Program-made: the position numbers and the translations under genes
Part shown: positions 2,507-43,331 of the stretch, piece after piece
Position numbering within the stretch: position 1 is the first letter of the stretch
How the letters are laid out: each line of letters starts with the position of its first letter
Notes under the pieces: generated by a model
Told to the model about the DNA's origin: nothing
Database searches by the model: none
What the model saw: the letters and a program-made list of their open reading frames with translations, nothing else
Source of the DNA: a virus
Direction: 5' to 3' (one strand)
IMG/VR virus record: IMGVR_UViG_3300038457_000122
Coordinates: 1-46,363 of that record
DNA length: 46,363 nt

Positions 2507-3992
2507 GTTCATCAGCAAAGGCCTCCTGGGGGTCTCCGGGCGCCCTGGCTGGACGCTGCGCTCGCGCACGCTCACTGCCCTAACCCTGCTGTCAGAGGGA
2601 TACGCGGGGACCGCTGGAGGGGAAATTGCTATCAAGCAAATCCCCACAGAAGCCTTGGGAGACGCCAAGAACTTCATCGCCGTCTCTCCGGACGGGCTGC
2701 GCCGTCACATCCTGAAAATAGAGATCGAGGCGTGCCGCGCTGCCGGCGTCGAACTCGACGAGAAACAACGGAAGGACCACCTAGTCAGCGGCCCCGCGAT
2801 GCGTGCCATGCTCGAAGAGCTTGAAGTGCACGACGGGGCGATCACCCGCGTCCGTTTCAACAGATCCGCGAAGAACCTGCTGATCGGGCTGAGCTACGAC
2901 GAGGCGCTGAAGGCGGCCCACATCACGCCCGTTCGCGACCTGCCCCTCAAAGAACGCCGCAAGCTCAACGGAAAGTGCTTTATCTACGTGCACGCCACAC
3001 CACGTCCGGCAACCATCGAAGCCCTCACGCGCCGTGTGGACCAGGAACGGGCGAGCGGAGCGGCCCCCAGCAAAACGGACGATAACTCGGCCGCCGTCCT
3101 CACAAATCAGCTCTTCGCAGACTGGGGAACCGAATTCGGCATCGACCCCGAGCTCCTAAAACAGCGCCCGGAGATGCGCGCTCTCATCGCCGAGCTGCAA
3201 CGGCTGGACGAACGCCGGCGGAAAGATGAAGACGCCTACCAGCGCAAGCTCTTACTCGCCCGCAGCAAAGCGGAATTGATCGCGCGCGGGGCCCGATCGC
3301 CAACCATCGCCGGCGCCCAGGAACCCCTTTTCCCGGCGCCCGGGCCCGCAACGCCCGCGCCGCCCCCAGTTTCGGCGCCTCTAAATCCAACCGGCGAGGA
3401 AGCTCCGTCTGTGTCAAACCCTCCGAGCCGTAGAGGCGCCGAATCCCCGATCGTCTCCATGCCGCGCTCGGCCGAAGCCTACCAGTTGCTCGACGAGCTG
3501 CGGAGGTATGTCAATGCCGACCTGGAGGGAGCCCGGGAAATGATCCGCCGCTGCCGCGCCCACGCCCCCCTGGTGACCATCGCCCAGTTGGCCGCATGGG
3601 CGGAAAGCATGGCGCCCACGGCTCGCGGCAAGGCGAATCCTTTCGGCTGGCTCCTCGTCTACCTGCCCAAGAAGTTCGAGGGCGCCCCCATTGCCGTAGA
3701 CACCCAGACGATGGAATACGATATCCCGCCCGAGCCCGAGGCAGCCAAGCGCATCCGCGAGCTGCTCGCCAAGGTCCACGCCTGCCAGCAGGCCGCCCGC
3801 AAGGAGCTCCGCGACGCCGGCACTTCCTCCATCGCCATGGAGCGCGCCCAGGCCAAGCTGCACCGCCTGTCCGCCGACGAGCAGCATCTGCAGGCTCAAC
3901 TGGACGAGCTGCTCAACCCCGCGGCCACCAGGCCGAAAGAAGCGGCCAGCGAGCGTCCCGAAGCGGCCGGCGCCGCAAGGAGCGGAGACTGA
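2463..3992 (+). CDS. Large putative replication-initiator-type protein
   Basis: A 509-residue protein, the largest of the rightward operon. Three parts: an N-terminal region (about 1-200) with YIYVHATPRP-like beta pattern, a Pro/Ala-rich linker (about 275-325), and a helical C-terminal region with ANPFGWLLVYLPKKFEG near 395-411. The last motif resembles the NPxGFLLxxxPKxFEG stretch I associate with replication or HTH proteins of plasmids and mobile elements; that link is from memory and tentative. Position at the head of the early operon and absence of any polymerase or helicase support a replication role. Coupled by ATGA to the upstream gene. Its start is duplicated in inverted orientation at 24677-24843. 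Ends in a helical charged tail. Confidence 0.65.
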   Translation: MSLKLPAIFEGIPWQFISKGLLGVSGRPGWTLRSRTLTALTLLSEGYAGTAGGEIAIKQIPTEALGDAKNFIAVSPDGLRRHILKIEIEACRAAGVELDEKQRKDHLVSGPAMRAMLEELEVHDGAITRVRFNRSAKNLLIGLSYDEALKAAHITPVRDLPLKERRKLNGKCFIYVHATPRPATIEALTRRVDQERASGAAPSKTDDNSAAVLTNQLFADWGTEFGIDPELLKQRPEMRALIAELQRLDERRRKDEDAYQRKLLLARSKAELIARGARSPTIAGAQEPLFPAPGPATPAPPPVSAPLNPTGEEAPSVSNPPSRRGAESPIVSMPRSAEAYQLLDELRRYVNADLEGAREMIRRCRAHAPLVTIAQLAAWAESMAPTARGKANPFGWLLVYLPKKFEGAPIAVDTQTMEYDIPPEPEAAKRIRELLAKVHACQQAARKELRDAGTSSIAMERAQAKLHRLSADEQHLQAQLDELLNPAATRPKEAASERPEAAGAARSGD

Positions 3993-7830: not shown

Positions 7831-10800
7831 TTACTGCGGATGCAGCTCGCGCCGCTGCTGGCGTTTCATCTGCTCGACGGGGTTGGGCAGCCTGGCGGGT
7901 TTCGAGGCCGGTTCTTTCGGGGCGGCCACCTTGCCGGTCTTGATCTGCTCCCAGATACTCCGGGCGTCTTTCTCCGGCTTGGGCGGCGCGACGTGCACCG
8001 GAGGCGTGCCGGCGAATAGCGTGGTCATCACTTCGAGGGGCTTCTTGTACTTGTAAGCCTCGGGGCCGAACAGCATCTCTTCCACGTTGCCGAAGCTCCA
8101 GGGAATCGGCGCCAGGCTCTTGCCGGCTTCGTAGGCGCCGCGGACTGTGGATGCCAGGGGGCTCATTCCCTTGGGCGCGATCTCGCGTCCCAGGAACGTT
8201 TGGTTCTTGACCGCTTCCACTCCCGTGCGGATCACCGGCGAGGCCTTGTTACTCATCGTCCGGAAGAGGCCTTCGACGGCGCCGTAGTCCTTGATGTTGC
8301 CGATGGTGTTCGCCAGGTCGCCCGGCGCGCCCTTAAAAAACAGGTTCTGGTAGATCTCTTTTCCATCGGCGTCCGTTCCCAGGTGCACCTGTGTCGGCCT
8401 TTTCGAGAGCTTGCCCGAGAGCAGCAGGCTCATCAGTTGCGTGGCCGCCATGCCGCCGACGACGGCCCGCAGCCAGAACATGCGCGCCATCTTGCCGCCG
8501 GGCGACGCCTCGCCCGCGTACTTCAAATTGAAGAGATTGCTGAACGTCCAGTCCGGAGCGAGCATCAGGGCGCGCGCCACGTTGGCCGTCATCTTGTTGA
8601 TCCCCAGGTTCTCGGTGTGCAGGCCGCCGTAGACGGCATTGACTTCTTTGGCGATCGAGCGCATGGCCGCGGTCCGCTCCGAGGGCATGGCGTCTTTGTG
8701 CTCCGCCAGCCACGCGGCTTTGTGCAGCGAGTAGTCCACCACTTTGAATTGCCGCTGCAGCTTGCCGAACGTCAGATCGGTGATTCCCTTGGCGGCCGCG
8801 TACACGTGGCGCACGCCGGCTGTCGATCGCCAGGCCTCTTCGGCGGTCGGCAGCGAGCTGAGGGTCAATCCCTCGGCCGCCTCGTAGCTCTTGCCCTGAA
8901 TCGCGGTGGTTCCTCCATGCGCGATGAAGTCCGCCTCCCGCTCGTGAAACTCCGGGGTGTCCTTGTCGGCTTTCAGCGCTTTCAGCCAGCCGCGCGCGCC
9001 CATGTTGGCCAGCGCCATGTAGTTTTCGGTGGTGGCGTGGAAGAAACTAAGCCCCAGTTGCGCCGCCTTGGTGTAAGCCTGGAACACGCGCAGGTTGCTG
9101 AACCCCGCGATCTTATTGCTGTAGTCCGGGTCGGTGATCGGCCGCAGCCCCATCTCGATCTTGCGCGGCACGAAGAGAGTCTGGTAAGCCCCCACCGGCT
9201 CGGGCTCTTCCGTCCCCTCGCTGCGCGGAGTGTACGCCACCAGGTTGCGGAAGGGGTGCGCGTGCGGCGCGATCTCCACCCAGTCTTTGGGAATGCCGCG
9301 GTCGCCTTTGGCGCCCCACACGCCGGTGTCCGAATCTACCAGTTGGTTCACGAGTAAGTGGGTCGCGCGCGCGGTGGCAAACTTATCGCCGTAGGCGTCG
9401 AAGGCCTTCAGGGCGTCGAGAGTCTTCGGCCGCTGGTTGTGGGCGATGGCTTCCAGGATGGTGGGGAACGCCCGCTCTTGATTGAATGGGAAGTTGCGCC
9501 CGATCTTGCCGCCCATGGCCCGCCCCATGCGGTCCACCAGGCTCGGCTTTTGAGCTTCGTCCCCTTCGAGCAAGTGAGTCACGTACTCGTCGGGCGAGAC
9601 GTGATGGTCGATGAAGCCGAGTTTCTTTCCCTCGTTGAGCGATACTTCCGCGATCCGGGTGAGCACCGAGTCGGCCTTCAGCATGGCCGGCGTGGGATTC
9701 ATGGCCCGCTCGATGGCCGGCCGCAGTTTCTCGATATTGTCCCGAGCCGTTCCCAGGCGCGACACTTCCCCGAAGACATCGTGCGTGCCGGCGAGATACT
9801 GCTCCATCTCTCCCGGCCGGTGGCGCATGTCGCGCATCAGGTACAGGCCCTCGCGGTCCACGTGATCGGGCAGCTCTTTGCGCAGCAGGTCCATCTCCTG
9901 GCGCACACGCGCGCTCCACAGGTCGCGTCTGGCGGTGAACCACTCGCGCATGTTCTGGCCGTAGCGCTTGTCGGCTTCGGCTTTGACTTGCTCGGGGGTC
10001 TTGGTGGATTTACGGCTGAACGATCCGCGCTCGTTGCCGAACAGATCGCCCGTCTCCGGTTTTTCTTCCTCGAACAGCCCGCGGTTCTCCGCCGGTTTCA
10101 GGTTGGAGGGTTTGACCTGGCCGCCGGATTTAAGCTGCGCGGTGAGTCGATCGTGGGTGAGCTTGGCCTCATTCGATGCTTCTTGCGCCTTGGATCTCAG
10201 CTCCTCGGCGGGAGTGACAAGGGAGGATTGCCCCTCGGTACTATTGACCGCGCGTGGCTCCCCGCCCATACTGGTAGCAGGTGCACCGCTGTTCGGCGAG
10301 GAAGCCGTCTCGCCGGCCCTGGAAACGGGGTTGCCGGAAACGTCGCTACTTTTTCCGGTGGACGGAGGAACTTGACCGCCGACTGGCGAAAGAGCTTCGC
10401 CGGCTGAAAGGTCCCCGGGAGCGCTCGTCCTCTTCCCGGAAGTCGGTGGTTTATCCTCGTACACCGTGAGCAACCACTTTTTCGCTTTTCCGTCGTAGTC
10501 CAGCCGCACCGCAGCCTTGTGAGTGTCGTCGAACAGTCGCACGCGATTCGGCCCGGAACGGTTCTCGTCTACCTGCATCTTCGAAAAGAATTCCGGGAGC
10601 GTATCGAGGATCGACGTACGTCCTTTGGCCACCAGTTTGGCGATACCTTCCCCGTCCTCGTAGTCCTTTTCCGGCGTTCCGGGCTTGCCCCAAATCAGAT
10701 CGACGTCGCCGAGGCGCGGATCGGGGTGGTGCAACGCTCCCACCGCGTCGCCGGTCTGGTGACCGAGGAGCCACGCGATCGCGCCCCTCGCGTCCTGGTG

Positions 10801-13518
10801 GAATTGCCGCAAGATTGGCCCGTGCGGTCCCGTCTCGGCGCCCGGCTGCAGCTTTGCCTTGTTCGCCGCGATGTTGACCTTGTTTCTCTGTACGGCCTGC
10901 TGAAGTGAGTTGGGGGCCTTGACCGAGGCCTGAGCTACTGGGGCTTCGTCTGGACGCACCTGGCCCGCTCGGCCGGTGTCATCGACGCCAGCTCCGCCGG
11001 CGTCCAGCGAATTCGGTTCTCCGGATCCAGCTTCGCCGCTCCGCTCTTGACGCAGGCCTTCAGTTCGCTCACCAGCTCCTCGCGGAACTCCGGTGAGTCG
11101 ATCGATCTGGCCTTTGAGGTGGTCTCTGACTTCGCGGTAGGCTGACTGTTTGACGTCATTGGCGTTGCCTCCCTGGTGGAGTTGCTCGGCGGCGCGATCC
11201 AGGATGCCGTCGATAGGTCCGGCTGAAGTGCTCAGCTTATCGTACAGCGAAATGCCCTGGTTTGCGGCCTCTGTTTTCTCCGCATTGGCGCCCGCCTGGA
11301 TGACGTTCCCCGCTTCTCCCAGCCGGTCCGCCGCGGCTTGCCCCGACACCACGCCGAAGAGCTTCTTCTCCGCCTTGAGCTGTCCGCGCACGTAATCCGA
11401 GACGATGGCCTTTTCCGGCAGCAGGGAGCGCGTCATCTCACCCACGTCGAACATGCTGCCCTGCGCCGCTTCTCCCGGCTTCTCGGTTACTGTCGGGGCA
11501 CGCTGGTTCATGCGGATCAGCTCGCCCACCTGGTCGTTGGTGAGCCGCTGGCCCGCGGCCTCGCGCTGCCGCATGAGGGTGTAGATGGCCGTCTGGTCGG
11601 CCTGATTGGGGACGCCGGCGCCGAGCACGGCCGCGCGCTCCACCGGTAAAAGCCCATGCACCACGTCGTGGAAGATGGGAGGCGAGAGGTTTGCCAGGGC
11701 CATGCCCTGATTGGCGACCTGCTTGCGCATCGAGATCTTCCCCTCGGCCGCAACCGTCTCGGGAGTCATGCCGGTATCGCGGAAGAACTTGGCCGCGTCG
11801 ATGGCTGTTCCATTCCCCTCGGCGATATTGATCATGGCGCCCTTGGCGCGCGCTTCCGGCGCGGTGGCGGCATCCAGGTACCGCACCTGCATCTCCGGCA
11901 CGGGCTGCGGTTTGTTCGACTGATCGGCGATGGTATTCAGTCTCTGCGCCAGCTCCGTGCGGTGATGGCCGTTGACCGCGTAAGTCTGTCCGTTTGCCGG
12001 GTCCAGCCACACGTGTACCGTCCCGGCGATGTCCGGGTCCCAGGTCGTCACATCCTTGAACTGGTCGCCGACGCCGTGCTGCCCGATGTCCTGCTGCTTG
12101 AACTGGAACCGCGTGGGGTCGAGCTGGATATCGCCCGTGGGAATGCGGCCCTCGAATCCCGGACCGCGCGGCATCGGCGCCTCGGCCGCGGGAGCCTGGC
12201 TGGCGGGGGACTCCGCGGGCACCGGAGGCGCAGGAACGGCCGTCCAGCCCTTTCCCAGGTCTAAGGGCGGCTCAGTCGGGGTGACAGTCTGTGGCGTCTC
12301 GGCCGCAGGCTGCCGAGGGGCGGGGGCCGGCGGGGGCGCGGTGAAGTTCGAGACGTCCCACCCAGGGGCTGGCTCTTGCGCTACGGGCGTCTCTGAGGCC
12401 GCTGGCGGTGGGGGGGGTGCGGATACGGCAGAGGGCTCCGCGGATTTCTCCGGCAGCGGGTAGTTCGCCTTGCGCTCGGCGATGGCGGCTTGCTCCTGCC
12501 GCGCGATTTCCTCCTCGACGGGATTGGAGGTGAAGTTCGAGAGGTCCCAGCCAGGGGCTGGCGTTGGCGCTACGGGAGGCGCTGGGGCCGCTTGCGGCGC
12601 GGCGGCCGGTGGAGGGCCTTCCTCCGCGGGCGCTGGCAGGCCGCGGCTGAAACGGGCTTGGGAGGCTGCGTTCCTCTCCGCGCTCGCGCGGGTCGCCTCA
12701 TCGTTGTACAGCCGCTCCTGGAGGGCTTTCTTGGTTGCCGCCAAGGTTTCTATGTCGCTGAGCTGCCCGTGCGCGTGCATGACCGCGAGGCTTCCCAGAA
12801 ACGCCGATGTGCCGGCGGCGCCGAGCTGACCGAGCGCCCCCCAGTAATCGCCCTGCTTGGCCGAGCCGTAGGCCGCGGGGACCTCCTTCACAATCTGTTT
12901 GGCGGATTGCCCGGCGAACCAGATCGACAGAGCGGCGTCGGCCGCTTTCCCCGCCGCCGCCACTTGCGCGGTCCCGCTGGTAGCTGCCGCGCCGAGGCCT
13001 CCGCTGGCCAGGGCGATTGCGCCGCCGGCCGGCGAGAGCATGCTGGCCGCCGGTTCGATGAGCGCCTTTTGTTCGATCTGGAAGGGGCCGACCATGATCT
13101 GGTTCAGTTCCTTGACGGCATCTTTGACGGACTGCGGGGGAGAGAGCAGGAAATCCTGGATCGACTGGGACTTCGGTGCGGTGTCGACCGTCCGCCCGTT
13201 GGGCCCGGCGTATGTCTGAGTGCCCGGCTGTTTGACGAAGGTCGTAACGATGGGAGGGCCGGCCGGCTTCGGTTCCTCGGCCAGAATCTGGGGCACGGGT
13301 TGCCGCGGTCCCACGAAGGGCGTAGCCGGCGCCGGGGGAGTCGCGCCGGCAGGCGCGGCGGGAGCCGGCGTTGCCGATATCGGCGGAGTCGCGCCCACAG
13401 GCCCGAACTTACTCAGGTCCCAACCGCCCTGCGCGGGCGCGGCGGGGGCCGGTGTCGCCGGCGCCGGCGGCGGTCCGCCCACGGGCGCGAATTTACTGAG
13501 GTCCCAGCCGTCTGCCAT
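7831..13518 (-). CDS. Giant multidomain (polyvalent-type) virion protein, 1895 aa
   Basis: The N-terminal about 440 residues are mostly Pro/Ala-rich and contain the recurring motif GWDLSKF/GWDLSNF/GWDVSNF (about residues 4, 32, 322, 386). A hydrophobic Gly/Ala segment at about 155-200 could cross membranes. Residues about 455-560 look ParB/sulfiredoxin-like (GDIQLDP, then VNGHHRTELAQR). Residues about 900-1020 match the PBECR nuclease-like family of phage polyvalent proteins (LGDVDLIWGKPGTPEKDYED, AVRLDYDGKAKKWLLTVYE). A second hydrophobic stretch is near 1681-1702. Such giant proteins are often packaged and injected with the DNA. Position among ejection-like genes agrees. Enzyme activity is not proven. 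Confidence 0.75.
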   Translation of the reverse strand: MADGWDLSKFAPVGGPPPAPATPAPAAPAQGGWDLSKFGPVGATPPISATPAPAAPAGATPPAPATPFVGPRQPVPQILAEEPKPAGPPIVTTFVKQPGTQTYAGPNGRTVDTAPKSQSIQDFLLSPPQSVKDAVKELNQIMVGPFQIEQKALIEPAASMLSPAGGAIALASGGLGAAATSGTAQVAAAGKAADAALSIWFAGQSAKQIVKEVPAAYGSAKQGDYWGALGQLGAAGTSAFLGSLAVMHAHGQLSDIETLAATKKALQERLYNDEATRASAERNAASQARFSRGLPAPAEEGPPPAAAPQAAPAPPVAPTPAPGWDLSNFTSNPVEEEIARQEQAAIAERKANYPLPEKSAEPSAVSAPPPPPAASETPVAQEPAPGWDVSNFTAPPPAPAPRQPAAETPQTVTPTEPPLDLGKGWTAVPAPPVPAESPASQAPAAEAPMPRGPGFEGRIPTGDIQLDPTRFQFKQQDIGQHGVGDQFKDVTTWDPDIAGTVHVWLDPANGQTYAVNGHHRTELAQRLNTIADQSNKPQPVPEMQVRYLDAATAPEARAKGAMINIAEGNGTAIDAAKFFRDTGMTPETVAAEGKISMRKQVANQGMALANLSPPIFHDVVHGLLPVERAAVLGAGVPNQADQTAIYTLMRQREAAGQRLTNDQVGELIRMNQRAPTVTEKPGEAAQGSMFDVGEMTRSLLPEKAIVSDYVRGQLKAEKKLFGVVSGQAAADRLGEAGNVIQAGANAEKTEAANQGISLYDKLSTSAGPIDGILDRAAEQLHQGGNANDVKQSAYREVRDHLKGQIDRLTGVPRGAGERTEGLRQERSGEAGSGEPNSLDAGGAGVDDTGRAGQVRPDEAPVAQASVKAPNSLQQAVQRNKVNIAANKAKLQPGAETGPHGPILRQFHQDARGAIAWLLGHQTGDAVGALHHPDPRLGDVDLIWGKPGTPEKDYEDGEGIAKLVAKGRTSILDTLPEFFSKMQVDENRSGPNRVRLFDDTHKAAVRLDYDGKAKKWLLTVYEDKPPTSGKRTSAPGDLSAGEALSPVGGQVPPSTGKSSDVSGNPVSRAGETASSPNSGAPATSMGGEPRAVNSTEGQSSLVTPAEELRSKAQEASNEAKLTHDRLTAQLKSGGQVKPSNLKPAENRGLFEEEKPETGDLFGNERGSFSRKSTKTPEQVKAEADKRYGQNMREWFTARRDLWSARVRQEMDLLRKELPDHVDREGLYLMRDMRHRPGEMEQYLAGTHDVFGEVSRLGTARDNIEKLRPAIERAMNPTPAMLKADSVLTRIAEVSLNEGKKLGFIDHHVSPDEYVTHLLEGDEAQKPSLVDRMGRAMGGKIGRNFPFNQERAFPTILEAIAHNQRPKTLDALKAFDAYGDKFATARATHLLVNQLVDSDTGVWGAKGDRGIPKDWVEIAPHAHPFRNLVAYTPRSEGTEEPEPVGAYQTLFVPRKIEMGLRPITDPDYSNKIAGFSNLRVFQAYTKAAQLGLSFFHATTENYMALANMGARGWLKALKADKDTPEFHEREADFIAHGGTTAIQGKSYEAAEGLTLSSLPTAEEAWRSTAGVRHVYAAAKGITDLTFGKLQRQFKVVDYSLHKAAWLAEHKDAMPSERTAAMRSIAKEVNAVYGGLHTENLGINKMTANVARALMLAPDWTFSNLFNLKYAGEASPGGKMARMFWLRAVVGGMAATQLMSLLLSGKLSKRPTQVHLGTDADGKEIYQNLFFKGAPGDLANTIGNIKDYGAVEGLFRTMSNKASPVIRTGVEAVKNQTFLGREIAPKGMSPLASTVRGAYEAGKSLAPIPWSFGNVEEMLFGPEAYKYKKPLEVMTTLFAGTPPVHVAPPKPEKDARSIWEQIKTGKVAAPKEPASKPARLPNPVEQMKRQQRRELHPQ

Positions 13519-13519
13519 G

Positions 13520-14806
13520 TTACTTCACGAAGTAAACGATTCCGTCTTGCTTCATCCACACGTGGCCATCGGGGCCCGGTCCTTGCGTTCCCTCGGGAAT
13601 CTTGTCCATGAAGGCCTTAGGCGGCGCCTGCGCCCCCACGAGGGCCGCTTTGCGCGTCTGGTAGGACTGAATCTGGAACGCCGTGGTTTTCAGTTGCCCC
13701 TGCTTGACCTGCTTTTGAACGCTCGGCAGATTCGGATTCGCCAGGTCCGAATTGAGCTGTACTCGAGTGGCCTTCAATTCGTCCTCTTTTCCCTGGAGGG
13801 CTTGCATCTGCTTGTTCACCTGGTCGGCCTGGCGCTGGGTGAAGCGGTTATCCGTGCCGGCGTTGCGGTCCGCCGCGCGGCCGTTCGCCCCACTCACGCT
13901 GTTGGCGTTGCGCTGACCCGCGCCCGCGATCGTGGCGGCGTTGCGTTGACCCGCGCCCGCGATCGTGGCGGCGTTACGGTCCGCCGCGCCCGTAACGGTG
14001 TTGGCGTTGCGCTCCTCGGCGCCCGCGATACGCGCATCGTTACGCGCGCCCGAGGCCCTCCGGTCCTCGGCCTTCACTCCCGCGTTGATGAGGTTCGGCA
14101 CGTATTTCTGCGGCACGCTGGCCGGCGCGCCGGCGGCCTGGGCCTCCGGCGAGGTGGTTACCGGCTTCCATTGCCCCGTGGCCTGCGCGTAGGACGCCAG
14201 GTGTTCCGGCTGGATATAGATCTGCGCCGGGTATCCCTGCGCCTGCTGGTCTTCGCTGGTGGTCAGAGGAATCGCCGTCGAGCGGAACTTCGCCTGCGCC
14301 GCGGCGTTCGCCTGATCCTGCTGCTCCTGGTCCGTCTTCAGCTCGTACTGCTGCTTGTTCCCCTGGCGGTCCAGCAGGGTAACTGTGCGCGAGGGGTCCG
14401 CCTTCCGCACGATGCCCGGAACGCTCACCTGGCTGTCGCCCGCTCCTGGGACGCCCGGTACCGCCGGGACCGTGTAGCTGGCATCCGGCCGCTCGGTCAC
14501 CATCCCGTTATTGACCGGGCGCCCCACCTGCATGGCCATCTGTCGGTTCATGATGTCCTGCACGCTGGCGTTGCGGTCGTCGAGCGCGGCTTTCGTGGCG
14601 TCCGCCTGTCTTTGCGCCGCCGCGTCCTGCATCTGCTGGCGCATCTGGTAGCCTTGCAGAATGCCGTTCAATAGTCCGCCCAGAGGGCTTTGCTGTGTCG
14701 CCATTCGGTCCCTTCCCTCCGGCGGAGAGTTGCGCTCCGCCGCCCTGCTCATGGCCCCGCGGGCCTGAGATTGCGCTTCGTCCAGTTGACCCGAGAGATC
14801 GGCCAT
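13520..14806 (-). CDS. Putative internal virion (ejection) protein with hendecad repeats
   Basis: 428 residues, Gln/Ala-rich and helical. In its middle, four 11-residue repeats of the form xxRNAxTxxGA (DNA 13886-14017) suggest an extended coil. The C-terminus ends GPGPDGHVWMKQDGIVYFVK. Between an ejection-like neighbour and the giant protein, it is most likely an internal or ejection protein; no family named. Two starts are possible: ATG at 14806, touching the previous stop (TAGATG), or ATG at 14704 (MATQQSPLG), which has the better GGAGGGAAGGG ribosome site. I give the longer form. Confidence 0.62.
   Translation of the reverse strand: MADLSGQLDEAQSQARGAMSRAAERNSPPEGRDRMATQQSPLGGLLNGILQGYQMRQQMQDAAAQRQADATKAALDDRNASVQDIMNRQMAMQVGRPVNNGMVTERPDASYTVPAVPGVPGAGDSQVSVPGIVRKADPSRTVTLLDRQGNKQQYELKTDQEQQDQANAAAQAKFRSTAIPLTTSEDQQAQGYPAQIYIQPEHLASYAQATGQWKPVTTSPEAQAAGAPASVPQKYVPNLINAGVKAEDRRASGARNDARIAGAEERNANTVTGAADRNAATIAGAGQRNAATIAGAGQRNANSVSGANGRAADRNAGTDNRFTQRQADQVNKQMQALQGKEDELKATRVQLNSDLANPNLPSVQKQVKQGQLKTTAFQIQSYQTRKAALVGAQAPPKAFMDKIPEGTQGPGPDGHVWMKQDGIVYFVK
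13886..14017 (-). repeat. Four tandem 33-bp repeats in an ejection-type gene
   Basis: Each 33-bp unit encodes 11 residues (EERNANTVTGA, ADRNAATIAGA, GQRNAATIAGA, GQRNANSVSGA). The two middle units are almost identical in DNA, so repeat number may vary by slippage. An 11-residue period favours a right-handed coiled coil. Confidence 0.85.
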
Positions 14807-15556
14807 CTACTGGCCGCCCTGGGTGCTGAAGTAGTCGCCCCCGCCGCCGAAGCCGCCGGGACTGGTGTAGGTGATCCCGCCGTTGAAGCCGCCCGGGATG
14901 GCGTAGAGGTTCGCATTCGAAGTCGTGGGGAGATCGCCGATCGTCTCCGAGTTAAGAGACGGCGTCTCGCCCCCGCCGCTGCTGGGGCTCGAAAGCATCA
15001 GCAGACTCGACAGGCTCGACAGGATGTTGCCCAGCCCGCTGGTGGTAGTGGTGGAGCTGCCGCTCGTGTCGGCCGTGCCGCTGGTCGTCCCGCTGCTGGT
15101 TCCCGTCGAACTGGTTCCCTTGCCGGTGTTCAACAGTTGCTCTCCCAGGCTCGCCCCGTTGTTCATCTGGTTGATGGCGTCGCTTGAGATCTGCCCCTGG
15201 AAGTTCGACACCGCCCCGCTGCGCGCCAGGTTCGCGTTATACATGGCATCGCCCGCCGAGCCGCTCGATCCGTAGCCGCGGCTCGCCATCTGCTGCGCGA
15301 CCTGCGAGGGCACGCTGGCGAAGGATTGATTGATCGACTGCAAGCCGGCGTTCTGGATCGGCGCCAGCATCTGCATGGGATTCGACATCGAGCTCGCGGA
15401 GTAACTCAGCAGTTGATTCATCATCTGCTGCAGTTGCGGCGAGAAGGTCGGAGTCGAGCTCTGCGACGCGGTGCTGTTCGACTGCCCGCTGGTCGCGGTG
15501 TTGCTGTTGCTATTGGTATTGGTGGTGGTGCTGAACAGGTCACTTAGAAACGACAT
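14807..15556 (-). CDS. Ser/Thr/Gly-rich putative ejection or internal protein
   Basis: 249 residues. Low-complexity Ser/Thr/Asn N-terminus (about 8-37), a helical middle (FSPQLQQMMNQLLSYSASSM through AMYNANLARSGAVSNFQGQI, about 38-135) and a Ser/Thr linker into a Gly-rich C-terminus. The helical segment with RGYGSSG resembles small ejection proteins of podoviruses; weak evidence. It overlaps the end of the GNAT gene by 17 bases. Confidence 0.6.
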   Translation of the reverse strand: MSFLSDLFSTTTNTNSNSNTATSGQSNSTASQSSTPTFSPQLQQMMNQLLSYSASSMSNPMQMLAPIQNAGLQSINQSFASVPSQVAQQMASRGYGSSGSAGDAMYNANLARSGAVSNFQGQISSDAINQMNNGASLGEQLLNTGKGTSSTGTSSGTTSGTADTSGSSTTTTSGLGNILSSLSSLLMLSSPSSGGGETPSLNSETIGDLPTTSNANLYAIPGGFNGGITYTSPGGFGGGGDYFSTQGGQ

Positions 15557-18860: not shown

Positions 18861-19328
18861 TCAGTAGTAAACGAACACAGATAAATCGGACCCCGGGACC
18901 GCGCTGCCCACTCCCGTGATCGCCAGGCGGACCTGCGCCGCGGCCGCCATGACGCCCGTAGGGGTCATCGTCGCCGAAGTCGCCCCCGCGGCGATCGTGA
19001 AACTCGCCCAGGCCGTGCCGCCCACGTAAATCGTCGCCGCGATCCCCGCGCCCGTGGGCGCCGTCTTCACGTATGCCGCCACGCTCCGCGGCGCGATCGC
19101 CGCATTCAGGTACACCGCCGGCGCGGCGTCCGCCTCGATCCCGAGCGTGCCGTTGGCGTAGAGCGCGAGCGCGCCGATCGCGCCCGTCGTCGCCGTGGTT
19201 CTCGCCGCCGCCGCCGTGCCCGTTCCCGTTCCCGCGCTCTGCTGCATCAGCATCAGGCGGTTGTTCAGCGTCTGGGTCAGTTGCGCCGGCACGCCCGCGA
19301 TCTGCGGAATGGGAACCGGCCTATTCAT
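18861..19328 (-). CDS. Small structural protein, Ala/Thr-rich
   Basis: 155 residues starting MNRPVPIPQIAGVPAQL, then beta-rich Ala/Gly/Thr sequence with a GTAWASFTIAAGATSAT stretch. No family recognised; composition is that of a virion surface or fibre-tip domain. It overlaps the upstream gene by 8 bases and is followed after one base by the next gene's GTG. Confidence 0.6.
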   Translation of the reverse strand: MNRPVPIPQIAGVPAQLTQTLNNRLMLMQQSAGTGTGTAAAARTTATTGAIGALALYANGTLGIEADAAPAVYLNAAIAPRSVAAYVKTAPTGAGIAATIYVGGTAWASFTIAAGATSATMTPTGVMAAAAQVRLAITGVGSAVPGSDLSVFVYY

Positions 19329-19965
19329 CGACCGGCGCCTGCACCCACTGCGGCACTGGCGGCGTGGGCTTCACCGGCAGGCTCAGCGGCGCGAAACTCT
19401 GCGGCGTGGCTTCCACCGGGATCGCCAGCGGGTTGTAGCTCTCCGGTGTGGCCTCGATCGGGATCTTCACGCCCTGAAACTCCGCGGCCGTCGCCTCCAC
19501 CGGGATCGGGACGGGAGCGTATTCGCTCGCGGTCGCCTCCACCGGGATCGGGACGGGTTGGTACTGCGCCCCCGTCGCTTCCACCGGGATCGGCACGGGA
19601 GCGTATTCTCCCGGCGTGGCCTCCACCGGGATCGGCACGGGCTGATAGTCGGGCGATGTCGCCACCACCGGCAGCGCGCACCAGCCCCACTGTCCGTCAG
19701 GCAGCTCGCGGGTCCACACCCGCACGCCGTAGAGTTCCACCTGTCCGGCGCCAGTCGGAGTCAAAGTGGCCGACAGGTAATGTCCCTGCATCAGGCCAGG
19801 CAGACGCGACCGCAGCACCGCGCGAGTGGTGATGGCGATGGCCATCGAGAAGCGCTGGGCCATCGCCTCGCCGGGAATATCCGTGCTGAACGCGAGGCTC
19901 GCTCCGGACGTGGACACCACGTCCACCTCGACCTTGCCGAAGAGATGCGATTTCTCGAAGCCCAT
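19321..19965 (-). CDS. Structural protein with seven 14-residue repeats
   Basis: 214 residues. An N-terminal domain (about 1-100) with FSTDIPGEAM and VELYGVRVW shares its pattern with the protein at 20052 and the C-terminus of the protein at 20415. From residue about 104 come seven 14-residue repeats of the form xxxYxPVPIPVEAT. The Pro/Val periodicity predicts an extended beta or polyproline stalk, as in a thin spike. No family recognised. Confidence 0.65.
   Translation of the reverse strand: MGFEKSHLFGKVEVDVVSTSGASLAFSTDIPGEAMAQRFSMAIAITTRAVLRSRLPGLMQGHYLSATLTPTGAGQVELYGVRVWTRELPDGQWGWCALPVVATSPDYQPVPIPVEATPGEYAPVPIPVEATGAQYQPVPIPVEATASEYAPVPIPVEATAAEFQGVKIPIEATPESYNPLAIPVEATPQSFAPLSLPVKPTPPVPQWVQAPVDE
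19363..19656 (-). repeat. Seven tandem 42-bp repeats
   Basis: Each unit encodes 14 residues (for example PGEYAPVPIPVEAT). The first four are near-identical; the last three have drifted (AAEFQGVKIPIEAT, PESYNPLAIPVEAT, PQSFAPLSLPVKPT). Copy number could vary between relatives. Confidence 0.92.
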
Positions 19966-42596: not shown

Positions 42597-43331
42597 CTAC
42601 TTGCGGGACTTCAGTGGTTTGACTTGCGGGGCGACCCTCGCACGCCTTTGTTGCGCACCCCCTGGAGGGTGCTTTAGGGCCATCCTCAGCGTCGATTCCC
42701 CGACGCCGAGTTTACGCGCGATCGCGCGCCAACTCATCCCCTGTTTCCGCAGCTCCGCCGCCTTGCCGCGATCGAACACCTTGAACGGCCGCCCCAGCCT
42801 CACTCCCTTATTCCGGGCCGTCTCCAGCCCCGCCTTAGTCCTCTCGCTGATCCGCAGCCGCTCCTGCTTGGCCACCCACGCGAAAATCGGGAGGATCAGC
42901 TCCCCGGCCGGCCCCGAGGTTCGGAAGAACGGCTCAGTGTACGATTCCAAGAGCACCCCATAGTCCGCCAGGCGCCTGACGTGCAGCAACGTCTCTAAAG
43001 GCCCTTCGCGCGTCAGGCGGTCCAGCGCCCACACCAGCAGGACCTCGAACTTCCTCTTGCTGGCGTCGTCGAACATCCGCTGCATGGCCTCCCGCTCCGC
43101 GGTCTTGCCGCTGGCCCGGTCGGTGTACTCGATCGCTTCCCAGCCCTTCGCCGCCGCGTAGCGCCTCAGCTCGATCAGTTGGTTCTCGGGGTCCTGCCCC
43201 TGGTAGGCGTTGCAAGTGCAGCGCGGATGCGCGCAGCCCTTCTTTTTCTTGCTGTGCTCGTCGTGGAGGTGTCCGCAGCTCTCGCGGGTGCAGCGTTCCT
43301 TCGACACGCGGGCGTAGATGGCCGCCTTCAT
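42597..43331 (-). CDS. Serine recombinase (resolvase/invertase family)
   Basis: 244 residues. Catalytic Ser10 (IYARVSKE), LVWALDRLTRE (R105, D104) and the long E-helix region (QERLRISERTKAGLETARNKG) are clear; residues 190-218 form the C-terminal HTH (RKQGMSWRAIARKLGVGEST). An insertion at 11-41 carries C14, C19, H21, H23, H26, C33, H35, C38, C40, unlike typical resolvases. It cuts and rejoins DNA at short sites, perhaps resolving dimers, inverting a segment or integrating. The last gene of a leftward unit from 44692. Confidence 0.88.
   Translation of the reverse strand: MKAAIYARVSKERCTRESCGHLHDEHSKKKKGCAHPRCTCNAYQGQDPENQLIELRRYAAAKGWEAIEYTDRASGKTAEREAMQRMFDDASKRKFEVLLVWALDRLTREGPLETLLHVRRLADYGVLLESYTEPFFRTSGPAGELILPIFAWVAKQERLRISERTKAGLETARNKGVRLGRPFKVFDRGKAAELRKQGMSWRAIARKLGVGESTLRMALKHPPGGAQQRRARVAPQVKPLKSRK

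Follow-up and report, generated by a model that had tools for sequence, protein, structure and literature searches.

How a phage chooses a giant effector protein for packaging is understood for few phages only, among them T4 with its internal proteins and P1 with DarB (PMC9024508). This question is raised by a protein of 1895 residues encoded in a virus record of 46363 bases, the whole of which is called the window below. A first-pass annotation had described a putative injected polyvalent protein in which a Pro-rich stalk with a repeated GWDLS(K/N)F motif is joined to a ParB-like and a PBECR nuclease-like region. What our analysis adds is an N-terminal motif that is alike within a protein and different between phages, which turns a vague remark about signals into a testable tag.

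The giant gene and its surroundings

The reading frame of 1895 residues was confirmed, and its assignment to the minus strand is new (Table 1). Its ATG lies 2 bases past the stop of the preceding gene, and the gene closes a late block of podophage type. The same strand encodes the large terminase (phrog_2, E 7.4e-23), the capsid protein (PF25209, E 1e-12; phrog_371) and an adaptor of the SU10 type (PF24175, E 9.6e-16), as well as a non-contractile tail sheath protein (PF23845, E 6.5e-30). In most loci the giant is preceded by gene −1 (~390-620 aa) and gene −2 (~150-300 aa), in the manner of internal proteins.

Table 1. Features of the giant gene and of the two genes preceding it, in window coordinates
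Feature	Position	Strand	Basis
Giant protein ORF, 1895 aa, ATG start	7834..13518	−	ORF read; tblastn relatives
Motif copy 1, GWDLSKF, aa 4-10	13489..13509	−	sequence
Motif copy 2, GWDLSKF, aa 32-38	13405..13425	−	sequence
N-terminal Ala/Gly-rich part, probably helical, ~aa 95-260	12739..13236	−	recurs in 4/25 relatives
Motif copy 3, GWDLSNF, aa 323-329, past the N-terminal helical part	12532..12552	−	sequence
Motif copy 4, GWDVSNF, aa 386-392	12343..12363	−	sequence
LDLGKGW, one copy, ~aa 419-425 (position counted by hand)	12244..12264	−	sequence
ParB/Noc/KorB-like unit, ~aa 455-675 (modelled aa 448-800), GHHR at 517	11494..12156	−	fold and homology
PBECR1-related region, ~aa 895-1031; Arg967 replaces conserved His, Thr1018 kept	10426..10836	−	homology
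Conserved C-terminal helical domain, ~aa 1170-1895	7834..10011	−	common to relatives; weak model
Gene −1, 428 aa, presumed internal virion protein	13520..14806	−	conserved position and size; family common to five phages
Gene −2, 249 aa, presumed internal virion protein	14807..15556	−	conserved position and size

A near relative (L037) is located on a Bryobacterales MAG contig, which gives a hint at the host, although a phage contig may be binned by chance. With bases 1-25000 of the 46363 as the query no close DNA relatives were found among phages, and PADLOC returned no defence match. Pfam and PHROG labels for MtrA and Oxidored_nitro were discarded as noise (E 0.097 and 0.17). A serine recombinase or DNA invertase encoded at 42597-43331 on the minus strand (PF00239, E 2.4e-31; phrog_125, E 7.6e-38) hints at a temperate life style or at a switch. 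A 214-residue protein encoded at 19321-19965, also on the minus strand, carries the tandem repeat QPVPIPVEATxxEYAPVPIPVEATA in its second half.

Domains of the giant protein and their exchange among relatives

The stretch VNGHHRTEL, on which a ParB-like region had been proposed, does lie in a ParB fold; it belongs to a full ParB/Noc-type unit and not to the short stretch originally envisaged. At the sequence level the unit matched phrog_21 with an E value of 1.2e-54, in the last part of a family that is labelled portal protein. Residues 448-800 were modelled from 29 aligned sequences, taken from the window and from contigs, and the structure prediction suggested at first pass returned a ParB/Noc fold with a pLDDT of 86.0. 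Foldseek ranked ParB and Noc at the top (6t1f_D, E 2.1e-5). With VIA-align the model was aligned to Noc 7nfu_A over 191 residues (Z 9.3, rmsd 4.3), to ParB 6t1f_D over 180 (Z 9.2) and to KorB 8qa9_A over 199 (Z 9.0), in a list that also holds entries at Z 9-10 with an rmsd near 11, corresponding to another domain arrangement, and weaker, unrelated helical entries (Z ~6). The alignments to Noc, ParB and KorB all cover model residues 8 to ~228, a span that takes in the nucleotide domain as well as the DNA-binding domain. The model thus places an N-terminal nucleotide domain before a DNA-binding domain, in the ParB/Noc-type order. The GxxR motif of the nucleotide site is present as GHHR, with G, H and R invariant in all 29 aligned sequences, and we take it to occupy the GERR position. 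Sequence searches with P0001, A1, A3 and A4 gave no solved structure of weight (E 0.11 or worse). Identity with DdrB-ParB was rejected: PF18763 did not match the window protein at E<=1, and it matches five of the ten members of set A2, the aligned giants, elsewhere, the window protein not being among the five.

The same unit was found in other contexts. Portal proteins from two Pfam families carry it as a fusion on their C-terminal side (L072, L083, L091 and L117), and it occurs in two Autographiviridae, the cyanophage P-SCSP1g (ULF49719.1) and S31-C1 (BAQ94395.1), in a presumed core-protein gene. This gene comes after the tail tube gene and smaller internal-protein-like genes, a position that, from the gene order, we take to be the place of T7 gp16.

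The PBECR assignment was borne out by homology to Bbp10 of Bordetella phage BPP-1, to which the region is 48-49% identical (E 3e-33 when compared locally, 4e-25 against the phage collection) and within which GDVDLIWGK is located. It was borne out as well by relatives that match Pfam PBECR1 (PF18809), the window protein's own score being below the curated cut-off (17.5 vs 27.6 bits, E 0.0059). At E<=0.1, PF18809 was matched by three of the ten aligned giants of set A2, window included (best 7.9e-10). The presumed active-site His on the N-terminal helix, which is probably the catalytic residue of PBECR relatives, is Arg967 in the window protein, whereas all seven aligned relatives have His; the C-terminal Ser/Thr is kept as Thr1018, invariant in 8 of 8. 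An Arg at the position of the His occurs in one PBECR family (Iyer et al. 2017, PMC5512222). Given Arg967 against the His of all seven relatives, toxicity of the nuclease-like region is not to be expected without a test, and the RNase-like domain of the window protein may be inactive. An alignment mixing ParB and PBECR relatives was discarded because its PBECR rows fell on the ParB part. In L043 (Itty13) the annotated genes near the PBECR match run on the opposite strand, and the gene calls of that record may be wrong-stranded there.

The C-terminal 725 residues were present in all 26 distinct proteins compared, the window counted, and were 49-61% identical among ten aligned. Their model was weak (pLDDT 59.1), and its best viral matches were named 'Large polyvalent protein associated domain', with a best E of 2.6e-9 but a TM of 0.28. 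The parts upstream vary. Of the same 26 proteins, 7 carry the ParB unit, 4 the PBECR region and 5 the N-terminal helical part, with the window counted in each. A separate scan of viral contigs used the ParB unit as its query, for which reason PBECR relatives are fewer than ParB relatives. Other cassettes matched in relatives were ddrB-ParB, a histidine phosphatase and a zeta toxin. As judged from these sequences, the middle cassettes swap between giants that share the C-terminal domain. With two or more unlike domains (ParB/Noc, PBECR1-related and C-terminal) beside late virion genes, the protein belongs to the polyvalent class to which it had been assigned at first pass.

A peptide pair at the N terminus

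The previously annotated motif occurs four times in the Pro/Ala-rich N-terminal part, the fourth time in the form GWDVSNF. Within residues 1-80 of the window protein the best pair scored 53, whereas none of 300 shuffles scored higher than 24, and the repeat exceeds chance. GWDLS.F is absent from all other frames of the window, and the best other window match to an 11-residue form of the motif reached only 0.59 of the self score. Across the window and loci of up to ~25 kb each, as distinct from whole contigs, no convincing copy of a giant's own motif was found outside the giant. L002, L022 and L023 use motifs of the LDLGKGW type as their own repeat, and the single copy in the window protein is possibly a relic of cassette exchange.

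Nearly all of the relatives likewise start with a pair of 7-14-residue copies, mostly of a different peptide: LNPDTFMAAQ/LNPDTFMASQ in L007, DIFDQAA/DIFDQVA in L006, TRWDAQGNPL/TRWDASGNPL in L029, and QDLGGGWTVA and HGPWEDY, each present twice, in L022 and L030. Residues 1-80 of 25 family members and of BPP-1 were compared with 300 shuffles per protein at a threshold of p<=0.01. Significant pairs were obtained in 20 of these 26 with plain BLOSUM62 and in 22 when Pro and Ala identities were scored 1; elsewhere in the same proteins, 2 of 180 windows were significant with both scorings. The median best score was 35 within proteins versus 17 between proteins. Uniform scoring over 90 residues gave pairs in 17 of 25 proteins of the C-terminal family versus 2 of 158 upstream neighbour ORFs. 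The eight below threshold were L002, whose copies are spaced more widely (25, 415 and 492), L004 (0.013), L009, L015, L024, L033, L034 and L036. Eight of 21 proteins had a further copy of their own motif past residue 100, as compared with 16 of 420 tests for the motif of another phage; additional copies in relatives were located at 229-304 and 415. The DIFDQ type recurs in the unrelated giants L006, L051, L053 and L105.

In a survey by the ParB unit alone, the best 80 of 331 relatives yielded 49 new distinct ORFs, 47 of them with their 5' end, and 21 of the 47 had significant pairs. When these carriers were divided into classes, drawn after the pairs had been seen and not set beforehand, all pairs fell to the long stand-alone proteins (21/31) and none to the others (0/16; Fisher 4.5e-6, or 1.3e-4 with three tape-measure-like proteins moved to the first group and 1.4e-5 with two near-duplicates dropped). 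The pairless classes comprised four portal fusions, defined by matches to Portal_Mu or Phage_portal_2, nine proteins under 900 residues and three tape-measure-like proteins, a label that is our own reading, two of the proteins having been scanned without a Pfam match. Two ParB giants without a pair, L078 and L082, start with LPD22 (PF18834, E 1.4e-16 and 1.6e-15), possibly an alternative N-terminal loading module. No paper on such N-terminal pairs was found in a search of open-licence PMC papers, a scope that makes this weak evidence of novelty.

The age of the copies was assessed from copies 1 and 2 of 19 proteins, in which 152 of 174 residues are identical. The compared stretches had been picked for likeness, so that the codon differences count as evidence and the residue identity does not. 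Among 137 degenerate codons for the same residue, 65 differ, where 75.2 would be expected from independent draws from each gene's own usage. Synonymous codons are thus nearly independent, which argues that the copies are old and that selection maintains the likeness of the peptides. The codon comparison speaks against recent duplication and against conversion at the DNA level.

A proposed loading tag, its alternatives and known systems

We propose that the giant is a polyvalent internal virion protein that would be loaded via its repeated N-terminal tag and ejected with the DNA; to this explanation as a whole we assign a probability of about 0.5. During head assembly the repeated peptide (GWDLS[KN]F) would be gripped bivalently by a cognate partner that the phage encodes, either within the procapsid or at the portal vertex, and the giant would thereby be loaded. 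All copies would have to fit one partner, and for this reason they would be alike within a protein while the peptide differs between phages. A portal-fused protein would ride in as part of the portal and would need no loading tag, as the tag model expects. The conserved C-terminal helical domain may serve as the common structural or ejection part. Upon infection the giant would be ejected with the DNA and deliver its swappable middle cassettes, here a clamp of ParB/Noc type that would bind nucleotide and DNA, and an RNase-like domain related to PBECR1, maybe inactive. In an ejected protein, the ParB/Noc unit would suggest a clamp that acts on the incoming phage DNA or on the host nucleoid right after entry.

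More tentatively, many podophage-type phages could use the tag as a private loading code: the giant would be admitted by a bivalent N-terminal peptide that is unique to a phage or phage group and that evolves together with a single receptor encoded by the phage. If so, the tag could be read from the genome as the peptide occurring twice in the first 45-75 residues of the giant. Gene −1 was considered as the partner; within four families its similarity was uncorrelated with motif similarity (rho 0.10, 0.06, −0.03 and 0.12). If the pairs are tags, the rule 'find the peptide written twice' would predict the loading tag in many phages from sequence alone and provide peptide handles for loading chosen proteins into phage heads.

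The likeness within proteins and the divergence between phages would fit self-recognition as well as they fit a partner, and in the loci examined a giant's own motif occurs only in the giant itself. The copies could then act as homotypic stickers, the motif binding the motif or the protein's own domains in a self-associating internal core. We regard this as unlikely, many of the motifs being short and acidic (DIFDQVA, PDTLPADF), which is unusual for self-sticking.

The first-pass annotation had offered binding or processing signals as the role of the copies. The binding side has been strengthened by the significant pairs, the codon divergence and the relatives, and processing becomes a rival to the loading tag. 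The repeats would then be recognition sites for a phage head protease or a self-cleaving part that cuts the polypeptide into units. Copies 3 and 4 do fall between parts (323 and 386 in the window protein, 229-304 and 415 in relatives); two papers further report that processing of polyvalent proteins by metallopeptidases has been proposed (PMC5512222) and that the head protease cuts P1 DarA (PMC12810830). The two copies in the first 45 residues, however, would free only a tiny peptide, and the copies contain aromatic and acidic residues with no scissile pattern common to phages. No protease domain was found in the giant or in 10 other Pfam-scanned ORFs of the window, and we hold such processing to be improbable.

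Binding to a host factor such as a protein of the envelope or inner membrane, in the course of ejection or after it, would account for fast divergence among phages of different hosts, and the recurrence of the DIFDQ type in the unrelated giants named above speaks for it. A host-acting tag would be equally useful in the portal-fused and the short ParB carriers, yet pairs were present in 0 of 4 and 0 of 9 of these, respectively, and the extreme N-terminal position better suits loading; this role too appears rather doubtful. Functionless recent or neutral duplication in low-complexity linkers is highly improbable: Pro/Ala-rich N-terminal linkers are prone to slippage, and in the window protein the linkers that follow copies 1 and 2 resemble each other as well, but among 137 synonymous codons 65 differ, close to the 75.2 expected for unrelated ones, while the residues stay alike. 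Pairs occur, moreover, in 2 of the 158 neighbours and in 2 of the 180 windows inside the same proteins.

Among known systems, the T7 gp16-type core protein is the comparison that we presume for the ParB-carrying gene of P-SCSP1g and S31-C1. It shares with the window giant the gene position and the internal-protein class. The P-SCSP1g and S31-C1 proteins differ from the window giant in having no N-terminal pair (p 0.59 and 0.64) and in not sharing its C-terminal domain.

With the polyvalent proteins of Iyer et al. (PMC5512222) the window protein shares giant size, several unlike domains including PBECR and ParB-type ones, and a location beside late virion genes; it differs in having a full ParB/Noc-type unit in place of the DdrB-like family. 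A text search of that paper for short or repeated peptide motifs gave no hits.

P1 DarB is a giant that is loaded into the head via its first 30 residues and is thought to be injected; these 30 residues suffice for capsid loading whereas 9 are too few, and loading is likewise lost when 16-30 or 21-30 are deleted (PMC9024508). By analogy, pairs of the window type may do the same loading job as this N-terminal signal, although DarB, the one giant whose signal is proven, has no motif pair (p 0.63-0.97) and its domains are unlike those of the window protein. Another P1 protein, the small virion protein DdrA (L127, complement 3043-3408), starts with the repeat TLSAIELMDLSDKLDALMSK / TASGMELLDISDEIDQIMQQ (p 0.003), which looks helical and may be unrelated to tags.

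When the giants of eight named phages were tested for a pair, only BPP-1 Bbp10 was positive (Atu_ph08 gave p 0.017). Bbp10 retains the His that the window protein lacks, and neither the ParB unit nor the window-type C-terminal domain was seen in it. Bbp10 shares with the window protein the PBECR1 region, the placement of the giant after two smaller genes, and an N-terminal pair of its own, EFDAAVAGTL / PFDAAVAGVL.
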